A DNA stretch of 64,000 bases, taken from Pseudomonas sp. BSw22131 (GTDB taxonomy: Bacteria > Pseudomonadota > Gammaproteobacteria > Pseudomonadales > Pseudomonadaceae). Each line of letters begins with the position of its first letter. Within the stretch, counting starts at the first letter, position 1. The stretch spans positions 682,001-746,000 of the forward strand of contig NZ_CP113949.1 of NCBI RefSeq assembly GCF_026810445.1, in the 5' to 3' direction. Both the position numbers and the translations under genes were made by a program. The notes under the pieces were generated by a model, which ran no database searches, had not been told where the DNA came from, and worked only from the letters and a program-made list of their open reading frames with translations. Shown here one piece after another: positions 51,643 to 56,455 of the stretch.

Positions 51643-52707
51643 ATGGAAAATAATCAGCCGATCATAATCAAGCGCGTCAAGCGCTACGGCGGCGGGCACC
51701 ACGGCGGCGCCTGGAAAATCGCTTTCGCTGACTTTGCGACGGCGATGATGGCGTTCTTCCTGGTGCTGTGGCTGATGTCGTCCGCTACCCCTGAGCAATT
51801 GATCGCAATCGCCGGTTACTTCAAAGACCCGGTTGGTTTTTCCGACAGCGGGTCGCCCTACGTGATCGACCTGGGCGGATCGCCCGAGATGTCCCCGGAC
51901 CAGACCCTTAACCCCGAAGTGCAATCGGTGCCTGCGCCTGATCGCGTGCCTATTGATTCCGATAAGCAAAACGCAGCGTCCGAGCAAGCTGAACAGGTTG
52001 AGCAGGAACGTCTGGAATTGTTGCTGCAAGAGTTGCAGAACAAGGTCAACGAGAACCCTCAGTTGCAGAAGTTCAAGGACCAGATCCTGTTCGAAATCAC
52101 GCAGGACGGCCTGCGGATTCAGATCATGGACGCCGATAACCGGCCGATGTTCGACATTGGCAGCGCGCGCCTCAAGCCGTATTTCGAGGACATTCTGCTA
52201 GCCATGGCTGACACCATCAAGGCGGTGCCCAACAAAATCAGCGTCAGCGGTCATACCGATGCAACGCCGTTCGTGGGCAACAATGGAATTGGTAACTGGG
52301 AGTTGTCGGCTGGCCGTGCCAATGCCGCGCGCCGCGCGCTGGTGGCCGGCAGTTATCCGGAGTCGCAGGTGGCGCGTGTGGTCGGTTACGCCTCGTCAGC
52401 GTTGTATGACAAGGAACACCCCGAGAGCCCTATCAATCGACGTATCGACATTGTGGTCATGACCAAAAAGGCCCAGCAGAAAATCGAAGGCTCGCAGAAC
52501 GTTGGCGAGGCGCCGCAAACGCCGGATGCGCCTGGAGCCCCTGCGCCATCGCCTGTACCTGGCGCTACAGCGCCGGCCAATCAGCCGGGGGCGTCGATTT
52601 CCACACCTGCAGTTGATCCACAGGCTTACGCCCAACCCCACGAGATTCGGCAGAAGCTGAACATCTTCGATCAGGGCCAGTTGAAGATCGACGAAACCAA
52701 TAACTGA
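51643..52707 (+). CDS. motB: Flagellar stator protein MotB
   Basis: 354 residues. The single helix carries the essential proton-binding Asp in FADFATAMMAFFLVLWLM (about 28-45). The OmpA-like peptidoglycan-binding domain follows (about 150-270; SVSGHTDATPFVG, NWELSAGRANAARRALVAG), and a Pro/Ala-rich tail (about 287-330). Stop is close to the first copy of the palindrome at 52726. Confidence 0.95.
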   Translation: MENNQPIIIKRVKRYGGGHHGGAWKIAFADFATAMMAFFLVLWLMSSATPEQLIAIAGYFKDPVGFSDSGSPYVIDLGGSPEMSPDQTLNPEVQSVPAPDRVPIDSDKQNAASEQAEQVEQERLELLLQELQNKVNENPQLQKFKDQILFEITQDGLRIQIMDADNRPMFDIGSARLKPYFEDILLAMADTIKAVPNKISVSGHTDATPFVGNNGIGNWELSAGRANAARRALVAGSYPESQVARVVGYASSALYDKEHPESPINRRIDIVVMTKKAQQKIEGSQNVGEAPQTPDAPGAPAPSPVPGATAPANQPGASISTPAVDPQAYAQPHEIRQKLNIFDQGQLKIDETNN

Positions 52708-52725: not shown

Positions 52726-52754
52726 AAAAACGCCGCGATGATCGCGGCGTTTTT
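52726..52754. terminator. motB terminator, copy 1 of a duplicated palindrome
   Basis: The 29-base palindrome AAAAACGCCGCGAT-G-ATCGCGGCGTTTTT has two 14-base arms and a one-base centre, with A and T tracts at the ends, as for a bidirectional rho-independent terminator. The same 29 bases recur at 55324-55352. It ends the motAB transcript. Confidence 0.92.
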
Positions 52755-52815
52755 TTGATTAGATGGTCGCGTCTGAGGCGATATCCAGCGAAAGCCACTA
52801 CCTCTGCGGGTGACT

Positions 52816-53073
52816 TTATTCTGGTTTAAACCCAGGCTTGCCGTTGGCGGTTCGCCATTCTTTCACTTCTCGCACTATTCCCTGCGGGCTGTCTTCACGG
52901 TCATCTCTAGGGTAGAAAATGAGATCAGAACCCTCTGGGTGTTCAGTCAGTCTCTCAAACTCCAAGACATTCCGGACGTCTTCTTCCTCTGAAGCCCCTC
53001 CGCCGTCACAGATTGCGCTAACAAGCTCAAGGAATTCTTTCTCGGTATATTCGGAGATTAGTTTACTGGTCAT
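52816..53073 (-). CDS. Colicin E/pyocin-S-type DNase immunity protein
   Basis: 85 residues, the size and motif of Im9-like immunity proteins: [15 protein letters not shown] (about 8-22), and [19 protein letters not shown] (about 49-67) with the conserved YP motif that contacts DNase. Its start overlaps the bacteriocin stop by 11 bp, the usual coupling. It should bind and block the HNH nuclease encoded upstream. Cytoplasmic. Confidence 0.94.
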
Positions 53074-55109
53074 AATCTTTACCTTGTTTGTGGATACTGA
53101 TATGAAGCTTCGAGGTTACGATTCGAAGATTGCCGATATCATATAGCTGGCCGCCAGCGGCTAAATGTATGCGGTGATGGATTTCGAGCTTGACCCTACC
53201 TCCCACTCTATCTGCTCTTCGAGAATAAGGAGCTTTGCCTTTTAACAGATGCCCCATATTCTGCTTTGTAAATTGCTTCGCCATCTGGGGGTCATTCCCC
53301 ACGGCCCTCCAAAGCGCTTCTCTAAAATGTCTGAAGTTTCTGAATTCTTGTCCTCTCAATTGATCGGCTATATGTGAGGGGATCGCAACCCCCTCTCCAG
53401 TCGACGCTCCGCTCAACCATCTCTCTCCAGCCTGCTCTCCGTTACCTGTTACGGTCCCTGGTTCCTCCCTCCGATCTTTAAACATTACATAGATCGGGGA
53501 GAGTCCCGAATCTATGGGGAAGACAATGATCAAGTCGTTGAAGGTTGTATCTGCCACTTGGGGATATGTCTCAATTCTCCCTTCAGCCGGGGTTATGCTT
53601 GGGCCAAGGATTATCGATGGCGCTGGCTCCTCAGTTGGAAGGGTAGTCGAACTGTTCTCGGGCGTTTCGGCTGGCGTCCAGATTAGAGTCCTAGGCGGGC
53701 TATCTGCGGTTGTGAGGCTGTAAGTGTTGGTCTCTTGGTGATACGTAGCTGCGACGACCTTCACTAATGTTGGCAAGCTTGACGCGGTCGCATGAATCAC
53801 AATGAGCTCTGAATTGCCTTCCTCGTGGGGTTTCGAGCTGATTCGAAATGGCAATTCAACAGCGCCCCCGTCGGCTGCAACAGTGTGTAGGTCCTGCCTT
53901 TCCTCAGGAGCCATTTCTGACAAGGGAAGGCTGAAAAAGTAATCTTCCGGGAGTTCACCATCAGCGAGCCTGGGCGAGTATATCAATGCCGAAACACCCA
54001 CAAAAAGTCCGGCAGCCACACTTGAAACTGTTGTGGTCAGAGTTGCTATCGCCGCCCGGATGGCTGCCTGCAAGGTGAGGGCGGCGGTTTCAACGAGCGC
54101 GATAGCACCCGAAGCTGTTACCAGCGAGGGCTGAGTAACGCCGATGGATCCTCTGATGTGATAAATGTTGGCCACTGCACTTGCGTCAGCCTCCAGCCCA
54201 TTGCTCTCATGAGATGGTTTTTGCTCTTCGCTTGCGGCCCGCTCTTGTTCAACTGCTAGGCGCTGTGCTTCCGCTTTAGCCTGTGCAGCCAGCTGCGCTT
54301 GCTCTTCGGCGTGCCGTCGTGCTTCCGCTTCAGCCTGTGCAGCCAGCCGCGCTTGTTCTTCGGTGCGCCGCCGTGCTTCTGCCTGTGCGGCTAGGTGCGC
54401 TTGCTCTTCGGCGTGCCGCCGTGCTTCCGCTTTAGCCTGTGCAGCCAGCTGCGCTTTTTCTTCGGCATGCCTCCGTGCCTCCGCTTCTGCTATAGCTTGT
54501 TGCGCTCGGGCCACCTCTATTTCGGCGTCTAGAGAGGCAGCTTGTTCATTGAGGATTCTGATCGTCGCTGTGAGAAGCGTGACTCCGTGAGCAGCGCTGT
54601 AAGATTCAATCCAAGCTTTAAATACCTCATCAGGGCTTTTCGAGCGTATGCGTGGAAAAAATGCATTTACGAAGTCGACAGGGTTTCGATTTAGAGGACT
54701 GCTTCCATAGAATACGTTGGCAATCTCATTGCTTCGGTGAAGCTCGTCACTTTTCGAGTTGATCAGCATGTCAATTGCTGCTCTCTTTCGCGTCAGCTTC
54801 TCGATCACGGGAAGTGCGGCGCTGCCTACAACTAAATTGATTTCGTCTTCGGTTGCTGCAAAGAGCTGCTGCAGAGTAGTCATTGTCAATGGCATTTGCA
54901 GTTGTGCGTGTAAGTACATAGATTGCAACGCTTGCATTAGGTTGTCGGATATTTATTTTCTTGCCGAGCTCTGCCATTGAGGATAAGCCGGAAAATCGTT
55001 CACTCCATGGCAGTGGCTGGGCTATATGGCCTGGTAATGTAATTGGAGGCGGAGGTGGTGGTGGAGAGGGCGTGATGATGAGTGGTGGTAATTCAATTTG
55101 ATTGGGCAT
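53063..55109 (-). pseudogene. S-type pyocin / colicin-like HNH-DNase bacteriocin, frameshifted
   Basis: The 5' part, from ATG 55109 (AAGGAG upstream), encodes MPNQIELPPLIITPSPPPPP and WSERFSGLSSMAELGKKINI, then leaves frame near 54940. A second frame carries on with QALQSMYLHAQLQMPLTMTT, which is what the family has next. So the gene appears broken by a small indel near 54935-54950. Beyond it: a coiled coil of 18-residue repeats (54265-54500), a Pyocin_S-type domain, and a C-terminal HNH DNase (LEIHHRIHLAAGGQLYDI, HISIHK). The expected 600-650-residue toxin could be made only if the frame were restored. The unbroken 3' frame alone spans 53063-54937 (624 codons). N-terminal receptor domain is short. 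Confidence 0.8.
54265..54500 (-). repeat. Tandem repeats encoding the bacteriocin coiled coil
   Basis: Four adjacent units begin at 54265, 54319, 54373 and 54421, with lengths 54, 54, 48 and 54 bases, and a partial fifth begins at 54475. They encode variants of EARRHAEEQAQLAAQAKA, a heptad-like charged helix. The third unit lacks six bases (two codons). Such repeats can expand and contract by recombination. Confidence 0.85.
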
Positions 55110-55323
55110 GGTGAAGCTCCTTGTTTTTTTGTCTTCCATTCATCAGTTGAAAGATAAGGCTTAATTGCGTAGTTCGCGAAACTGATGTGTGGTGCATCTC
55201 CACGTTGCATAGGTTGAATGTGTTCGGCAAGTGCATTTTTTATAAAGGGATAATAGATAGGTGTGCGAGCTTAGTCGCCTGGCGCTCTGAGGCGGGTGTT
55301 TAAAGGTTATTTACAGAGCAATA
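55110..55323. other. AT-rich bacteriocin promoter region
   Basis: About 210 bases upstream of the bacteriocin start and before the second palindrome. No gene is supported here. The DNA is more AT-rich than the chromosome and must hold the bacteriocin promoter. I found no clear CTG-N10-CAG LexA box, and no named activator site that I could confirm by eye. Confidence 0.5.
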
Positions 55324-55352
55324 AAAAACGCCGCGATGATCGCGGCGTTTTT
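55324..55352. terminator. rsgA-side terminator, copy 2 of the duplicated palindrome
   Basis: Identical over 29 bases to 52726-52754. It lies 72 bp beyond the rsgA stop, where it can end rsgA transcription, and faces the bacteriocin promoter region on the other side. Confidence 0.92.
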
Positions 55353-55423: not shown

Positions 55424-56455
55424 TCAGTAGCTGCTTTCCGGCAGACTTGCGATGATCGAGCGATAGCTGTTCATTCGCTGCTGCTGCACGCGGCCGTCGT
55501 CCAGAGCCTTGAGCAATGCGCATCCTGGCTCGCGATCATGCTTGCAGTCACGGAAGCGGCAGGTGCCGATCAGGTCGTTGAACTCGATGAAACCCGCTTC
55601 CACGTCGGCGCGACTGACATGGCCAAGGCCAAATTCACGAATGCCGGGGGAGTCGATCAAGTCACCGCCGTTGGGGAAGTGGAACAGGCGAGCGGTGGTT
55701 GTGGTGTGCGTGCCTTGGCCGGACAACTCCGACAACGGCCCGACGCGTGTGCCGACTTCCGGCAACAGGCTGTTGACCAGCGACGATTTACCCACGCCCG
55801 ATTGACCAACGAACACGCTGATGTGCCCATCCAGTTGCGCTTGCAGTTGTTGCATGCCGTCGCCGTGGTGCGCCGACACTTCCAGTACCGGATAACCCAG
55901 CGTGCGATAAACCGCGAGCAGTGCATTCAGCGCGGGGGCGTTTTGTTCGTCGATCAGGTCGAACTTGTTCAGCAGCAGCAGCGGATGAATGCCTGCGTGC
56001 TCGGCTGCGACCAGATAGCGGTCGATCAGGTTGGCGTGAGGCTCGGGCATTGGCGCGAATACGATCACGATCAGGTCGACGTTGGACGCGACAGGTTTGA
56101 GCTGACCGCGGCTGTCAGGCCGGCACAGCTCGGTGTTGCGCGGCAACTGCGCGACGATCACACCAATGCCCTGGTTGCCGGCTCGCCAGACCACACGATC
56201 ACCGGTGACCAGCGCAGGCAGGTTGGCGCGCAAATGGCAGCGGAAAACCTGACCGCTCAGATCGCCTTCCTGGGCCTCGACTTCCACTTGCACACCAAAG
56301 TGCGCAATGACCAGCCCCGTTTGCTCGGGGCCAAGGTCGCCGCCTTCCAGCGATTCGATTGTCAGCGATTCACGTTTGGCGGCGCGGGCGGCACGCTCGC
56401 CTTGAATCTTTTCGATGCGCCAGTTTTGACGACGATTGAGTTGGCGTTTGGCCAT
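55424..56455 (-). CDS. rsgA: Ribosome small-subunit GTPase RsgA
   Basis: 343 residues, a circularly permuted GTPase. G4-like LLNKFDLI comes before the P-loop [17 protein letters not shown] (about 216-232), then TTTARLFHF and the zinc knuckle [16 protein letters not shown] (about 296-311). An N-terminal OB-fold precedes. It matures the 30S subunit. Divergent from orn with a 114-bp gap. Confidence 0.95.

Follow-up and report, generated by a model that had tools for sequence, protein, structure and literature searches.

A DNase pyocin-immunity module at the motB-rsgA junction of a Pseudomonas genome and the probable duplication of a gene end and terminator by its insertion

Islands that tyrosine recombinases integrate at gene 3' ends restore the host gene and displace its original 3' fragment, and the minimal mobile elements of Neisseria are exchanged through both of their flanks and are not known to duplicate gene ends. 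In Escherichia coli, according to the part of the article available to us (PMC3240628), single crossovers of circles lead to partial gene duplications of 109-950 bp, and homology-facilitated illegitimate recombination (HFIR) generally leaves a deletion. HFIR has been proposed for the T6SS effector-immunity modules of Vibrio cholerae (available part of PMC5361080). No mention of a chromosomal pyocin setting with duplicated host gene ends was found in the available parts of PMC5277000, PMC3390384, and PMC5536347, and the open-licence PMC text yielded no literature on the motB-rsgA junction or on duplication of a terminator or gene end at bacteriocins.

The window, that is, the whole stretch of 64,000 nucleotides analyzed here (bases 682001-746000 of a Pseudomonas genome, label G000, assembled as one contig of 5.74 Mb), carries a pyocin locus between motB and rsgA. 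Pyocin loci at protein-coding genes, including those of other genomes described below, share the topology of the tyrosine-recombinase islands but differ from them in that no recombinase was seen and the lengths of the repeats vary. With the minimal mobile elements of Neisseria, the motB-rsgA locus shares the arrival of different cassettes at one conserved core-gene junction. Campbell-type integration in E. coli, as presented in the available part of PMC3240628, has in common with the pyocin loci a complete gene, a partial copy, foreign DNA between them, and repeats of about 100 bp to 1 kb; the pyocin loci, however, are inferred from natural chromosomes, and no circle was seen. The T6SS modules of V. 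cholerae (PMC5361080, same part) likewise consist of a toxin-immunity module with border homology and no known integrase, yet HFIR leaves deletions (PMC3240628, same part), whereas the pyocin loci show duplications.

In the window, motB (51643..52707, + strand) is complete, with Pfam MotB_plug and OmpA domains, and its 3' end is the insertion point. It is convergent with rsgA (55424..56455, - strand; PF03193, 2.6e-57), the second host gene of the ancestral junction. The module between them (52755-55323) has a GC content of 51.3%, compared with 58.2% in motB and 61.2% in rsgA. It starts with an 85-aa pyocin/colicin immunity gene (52816..53073, - strand; PF01320, 6.8e-34), whose product is 79% identical to its counterpart in a relative, G068, and continues with an S-type pyocin that has no single intact frame. 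More specifically, the larger frame (53063..54937, - strand), with Pyocin_S and DNase domains (PF06958, 1.5e-36; PF21431, 1.1e-44), matches the G068 pyocin starting at its residue 85, and an N-terminal piece in another frame (54771..55109, - strand) aligns to residues 1-81 of that intact protein, so that the two overlapping frames are consecutive parts of the G068 protein. The window gene thus appears to be broken by a frameshift, which the earlier note had overlooked, and is either a pseudogene or the product of a sequencing error. With a Pyocin_S domain, a Col-Pyo DNase domain, and a linked, overlapping small immunity gene, all above the curated Pfam cut-offs, the pair belongs with the S-type (nuclease) pyocins and their immunity genes, from which it differs by its broken toxin frame. 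About 120 bp of the pyocin upstream region (55110..55323, - strand) resemble the G068 upstream region, and the two regions are homologous (score 52.5 versus a shuffle maximum of 36.5). Of the ORFs of at least 40 aa that the repeats enclose, none but the pyocin frames and the immunity gene resembles a gene by eye, and no recombinase was found (ORFs judged by eye, Pfam on the pyocin frames and immunity gene). A DNA transposon was considered and rejected, as there is no transposase-like ORF and, among inverted repeats, only the palindromes pair across the ends of the insert. A second, distant pyocin-type match of about 30% identity is present elsewhere in the same genome (G000:C1:373210-374007).

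The module is bounded by two 29-bp palindromes, at 52726..52754, between motB and the oppositely oriented immunity gene, and at 55324..55352, 3' of rsgA; the earlier note on this DNA had reported them as identical, and both copies are indeed exact. The motB stop codon is 18 bp from copy 1 and the rsgA stop codon 71 bp from copy 2. The repeat is exactly 29 bp long, since the flanking bases are C and T at copy 1 and A and G at copy 2, so that identity ends at the ends of the hairpin. None of 100 dinucleotide shuffles of the window matched the palindrome at up to 3 mismatches, and in the whole genome (5,739,290 bp) these two sites are the only ones at that threshold. Copy 2 is therefore not one of many similar terminators, which rules out a terminator common in the genome, and the pair is not due to chance. 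On either strand, each copy folds into a 13-bp hairpin with a 3-nt loop (-19.7 to -20.9 kcal/mol, z -5.1 to -6.1), as would be expected of a bidirectional intrinsic terminator; the GC-rich hairpin, a T-run on both strands, and the convergent genes all agree with this prediction. Neither palindrome was reported by a simple scan for terminators, in which the A/T tract may have been taken as part of the stem.

We compared the motB-rsgA junction across relatives that lack this bacteriocin. From an rsgA search of named GTDB genomes, the best 80 of 536 loci were kept, motB falling outside the stretch in five of them (L021, L027, L061, L070, and L081); nine further loci from other genomes were added, giving 84 measured junctions, of which 80 are distinct after allowing for four same-genome pairs. 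Neither the immunity nor the pyocin query matched at any of the 84. The core palindrome, GCCGCGAT-N-ATCGCGGC, occurs once in 45 of these junctions, not at all in 39, and twice in none, and a near-complete 27-bp form is single in 26 and double in none. Relatives with one terminator and no bacteriocin, for which the earlier note had proposed to look, thus exist, and the two-copy state, which by that note would have refuted its proposal, does not occur among them. This indicates that the ancestral junction had a single bidirectional terminator that was duplicated by insertion, as that note had supposed. Under a looser definition of the hairpin, one junction of the 84 (L079) has two related, non-identical hairpins. 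In L079, this GCCGCG hairpin pair lies at both ends of a different insert, of 4.65 kb, between rsgA and motB, which hints that this insert, too, may have brought a terminator copy in a possible second terminator duplication. Several other insert-bearing junctions are bounded on either side by hairpins that differ in sequence from this one.

Inserts other than the pyocin module are indeed found at this junction, where the gap between rsgA and motB is at least 1.5 kb in 18 of the 84 cases. Ten ORFs from the inserts of five loci were tested; four had no Pfam match, and the families found include TIR proteins, a caspase-like protein, an IrrE-type peptidase, a fatty acid hydroxylase, and a Bro-N protein. 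PADLOC was run on nine of the ten. A three-gene TIR / caspase-like / TIR module, possibly a defense system, occupies the junction in L024 (7257-9133); its families were tested in L024 alone, and similar ORFs were seen by eye in several other gaps on the P. fluorescens side. At two further loci, L065 (7206-8171) and L041 (10076-11056), we observed a Bro-N protein matching PADLOC PDC-S13, a candidate defense family, and an IrrE-type peptidase. The predicted gene content suggests that foreign DNA, in part with conflict genes, occasionally settles at this junction. Among 28 junction gaps of at least 250 bp, no convincing duplication of the motB or rsgA end was found; L044, L053, and L064 were nominally above 20 shuffles, with short, weak alignments, two of them inverted. 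At this junction, gene-end duplication is known for the pyocin insertion only.

That insertion has an orthologous counterpart in G068, where the site and orientation are as in the window and the order is rsgA, terminator, motB fragment, pyocin, immunity gene, terminator, and motB. Contig C21 of this genome begins within the 3' end of rsgA and carries a terminator at 53-73, with one central mismatch, and an intact pyocin at 469-2394. The rest of rsgA is at the end of contig C4, whose last 21 bases are the first 21 of C21, and from this overlap we infer the rsgA adjacency across the contig break. Elsewhere in G068, far from rsgA, there are three tandem 225-bp units, each with a REP-like element and a copy of the rsgA 3' end (L169 16307-17025, G068:C20), a repeat that is probably the cause of the contig break at rsgA. 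The direct repeat flanking the G068 module is 125 bp long and ungapped (score 150 versus a shuffle maximum of 40) and still stands out without the terminator (106 versus 35). It consists of the last 26 motB codons with the stop (81 nt) and the terminator. The fragment is 81.5% identical to the end of the intact motB, with 15 differences in 81 nt and five amino-acid changes. Third codon positions account for 13 of the 15 differences (P = 3e-5 versus an even spread), so that much of the divergence arose under coding constraint, and a donor allele fits better than local decay. Of the 15 sites, however, the intact motB has the consensus base of the clade at 11, the fragment has it at 3, and neither has it at 1; together with the five amino-acid changes, this leaves room for a contribution from decay of the local copy or from a more distant donor. 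The 12 best matches of the fragment are all members of the same clade. We found no donor of the G068 upstream segment among 398 genomes and no clear recombination breakpoint in the G068 motB.

Gene-end duplications were then sought at 102 pyocin loci by comparing upstream and downstream flanks in direct orientation. Ninety-nine of these are matches of the G068 pyocin taken in order, from the third row to G216:C1:1401234 and skipping G077, G157, G215:C56, and G130:C2; the remaining three are G068, the window, and G022 (L230), the last of which entered out of order with its repeat already seen, so that the count is not blind. Fourteen of the 102 exceeded the best of 60 cross-locus pairs (48), and the other 88 had no flanking repeat above this control. 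None of 77 pseudo-inserts around rsgA exceeded it (maximum 36; a conserved region rather than accessory genes, three loci shorter than 12 kb being dropped). Besides the motB 3' end in G068 and the 29-bp terminator pair in the window, the repeats comprise the 3' end of livF in L263 (G235; 144 bp, 2 mismatches), the 3' part of a zinc-type oxidoreductase gene in L244 (about 345 bp), the 3' end of a conserved hypothetical gene in L230 (64 bp, 1 mismatch), the interior of gltS in L225 (diverged), the 3' end of a tRNA in L181 (57 bp, with a weakly matched integrase between the repeats), and a 59-bp repeat of unclear nature near a regulator gene in L198. In L187 (G153), it is the immunity gene that is duplicated; its copies flank the pyocin on both sides in a 335-bp alignment, and one of them has perhaps been displaced. 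The repeats of L186, L237, L183, L188, and L277 are, by eye, REP-type elements or unclear. Five protein-gene cases have a complete gene on one side and a fragment on the other. Thus, no constant att core was found, the duplicated host sequences differing in gene and length.

At the livF locus, the toxin has a Pyocin_S domain and no DNase-domain match. In all 13 other genomes of that clade, livF lies beside its native neighbor without an insert (the two matches are 59-414 bp apart in 12 genomes and contiguous in one); the insert (L263 4242-6678, oriented coordinates) therefore looks recent, and it suits bench tests. The relatives of L230 were matched on the cytochrome b561 side only. A yceI-like identity of the L230 gene was rejected, as the gene is conserved hypothetical by eye and the tested ORF had no Pfam match.

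On this comparative evidence, we consider it rather probable that a foreign DNase-pyocin/immunity module inserted at the 3' end of motB by a single crossover through short homology, duplicating the gene end and the bidirectional terminator; such a crossover at a gene 3' end is the best-supported mechanism. The insertion would have happened in an ancestor or in a donor lineage. The incoming DNA would have carried the motB 3' end together with the module and recombined once, like a circle integrating by short homology, so that a complete motB with a terminator would bound the module at one end and a displaced 3' fragment with a terminator, next to the native neighbor rsgA, at the other. A direct repeat of a host-gene end with a complete gene on one side, as expected of a single crossover, was found in G068, L263, L244, and L230, and the window keeps the terminator part of it. 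Upstream of copy 2, no motB remnant was found in the window (score not above shuffles), so that the 125-bp unit is read across to it from one relative; here the motB fragment would have been lost and the terminator alone would survive, retained since rsgA needs one. Selection would account for what has persisted, a complete host gene and a terminator on either side, and the two terminators may now shield the module from its neighbors, motB and rsgA. Related pyocins on Pseudomonas plasmids (e.g., of P. cerasi and P. ficuserectae; the best with 55% identity over 59% of the query) mean that circular sources exist; no pyocin match was obtained on phage records. In principle, the repeats could also permit a precise, RecA-dependent excision of the module.

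The earlier note had cast the palindrome itself as the site of integration and excision, and on this point it is most likely wrong. The G068 repeat is 125 bp long and includes 81 nt of motB, and other pyocin modules duplicate different genes over 64 to about 345 bp, all of which weakens the case for a dedicated 29-bp att site; as judged from these repeats, the palindrome probably represents a duplicated gene end that has been reduced to its core. The second version of that proposal, in which the incoming module already had a terminator and recombined directly through the hairpin with no need for motB, would account for the identity that ends exactly at the hairpin ends in the window, and the clade-typical 3' end of the intact G068 motB also fits a crossover beyond motB, in the terminator. 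We nevertheless regard it as distinctly doubtful, given the motB sequence within the G068 repeat and because 29 bp is short for RecA-type recombination. Site-specific integration, with the motB 3' end and terminator as attB, a recombinase acting in trans on a non-autonomous module, and the restored and displaced ends as attL and attR, predicts the topology seen in islands integrated at the 3' ends of genes, and L181 does resemble such an element, its repeats enclosing a 382-aa ORF with a phage-integrase central domain just below the Pfam cut-off (26.5 bits versus 27). At other loci, however, the repeats vary in gene, length, and identity (about 80 to 99%), and this variety argues against one site-specific enzyme; moreover, in the window, G068, L126, L225, L230, L244, and L263, none of the ORFs seen between the repeats resembles an integrase (ORF lists judged by eye, no integrase family among the tested ORFs). 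Such integration therefore seems unlikely. That the second palindrome is an unrelated terminator, brought with the pyocin or common in the genome and alike by convergence, is very improbable: strong hairpins of similar composition do occur at this junction across Pseudomonas, but only the two copies match in 5.74 Mb and the G068 repeat includes coding sequence.

Whichever mechanism applies, the module may have been gained once or twice. The nearest sampled kin of the window genome by motB and rsgA are L090, P. petrae, and two P. graminis strains (83.7-85.7% nucleotide identity), and a motB-rsgA tree of 16 tips (14 distinct genomes) places G000 and G068 in two subclades of one clade with support 1.0. 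The other 12 distinct genomes of the clade lack the module at the junction; 11 of them have exactly one palindrome and L005 has none. Both one old gain with several losses and two gains at the same site fit this distribution. Independent acquisition of related modules in the G000 and G068 lineages would replace one gain and several losses with two gains, and other inserts do occupy this junction elsewhere in the genus. Against it, the two modules share their orientation and a homologous upstream region, and G000 gave the sole other 65% match to the G068 pyocin among the matches listed from 398 genomes of the genus, the others listed reaching at most 57%. In addition, the divergence is that expected of old shared ancestry: nucleotide identity between G000 and G068 is 74.8% in the immunity gene and 68.7% in the 3' part of the pyocin, compared with 82.3% in motB, and a module that has diverged more than motB speaks against recent transfer between the two. 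The differences between the modules and their presence in separate subclades nevertheless make two gains conceivable, though less likely than not. The perfect identity of the window copies reveals little about age, because the same hairpin is kept in relatives whose MotB differs by up to about 23%.

The structure in the window is real and explicable, and both neighboring genes were left whole. Extending the single-crossover reading from motB to the genus, we suggest, tentatively, that Pseudomonas bacteriocin-immunity modules may spread as integrase-free DNA that enters the 3' ends of host genes by short homology and restores the gene end and its terminator, the displaced copy permitting precise loss; the palindrome pair of the window would be an eroded trace of such an event. 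Genomic islands, prophages, and other mobile elements are commonly held responsible for the turnover of bacteriocin genes between close relatives. If one crossover at a gene 3' end suffices, the gain and loss of a module would need no mobile-element machinery, and toxin-immunity cassettes would have a general route of harmless insertion. The displaced gene fragment would then be a searchable mark of such events in other genomes.
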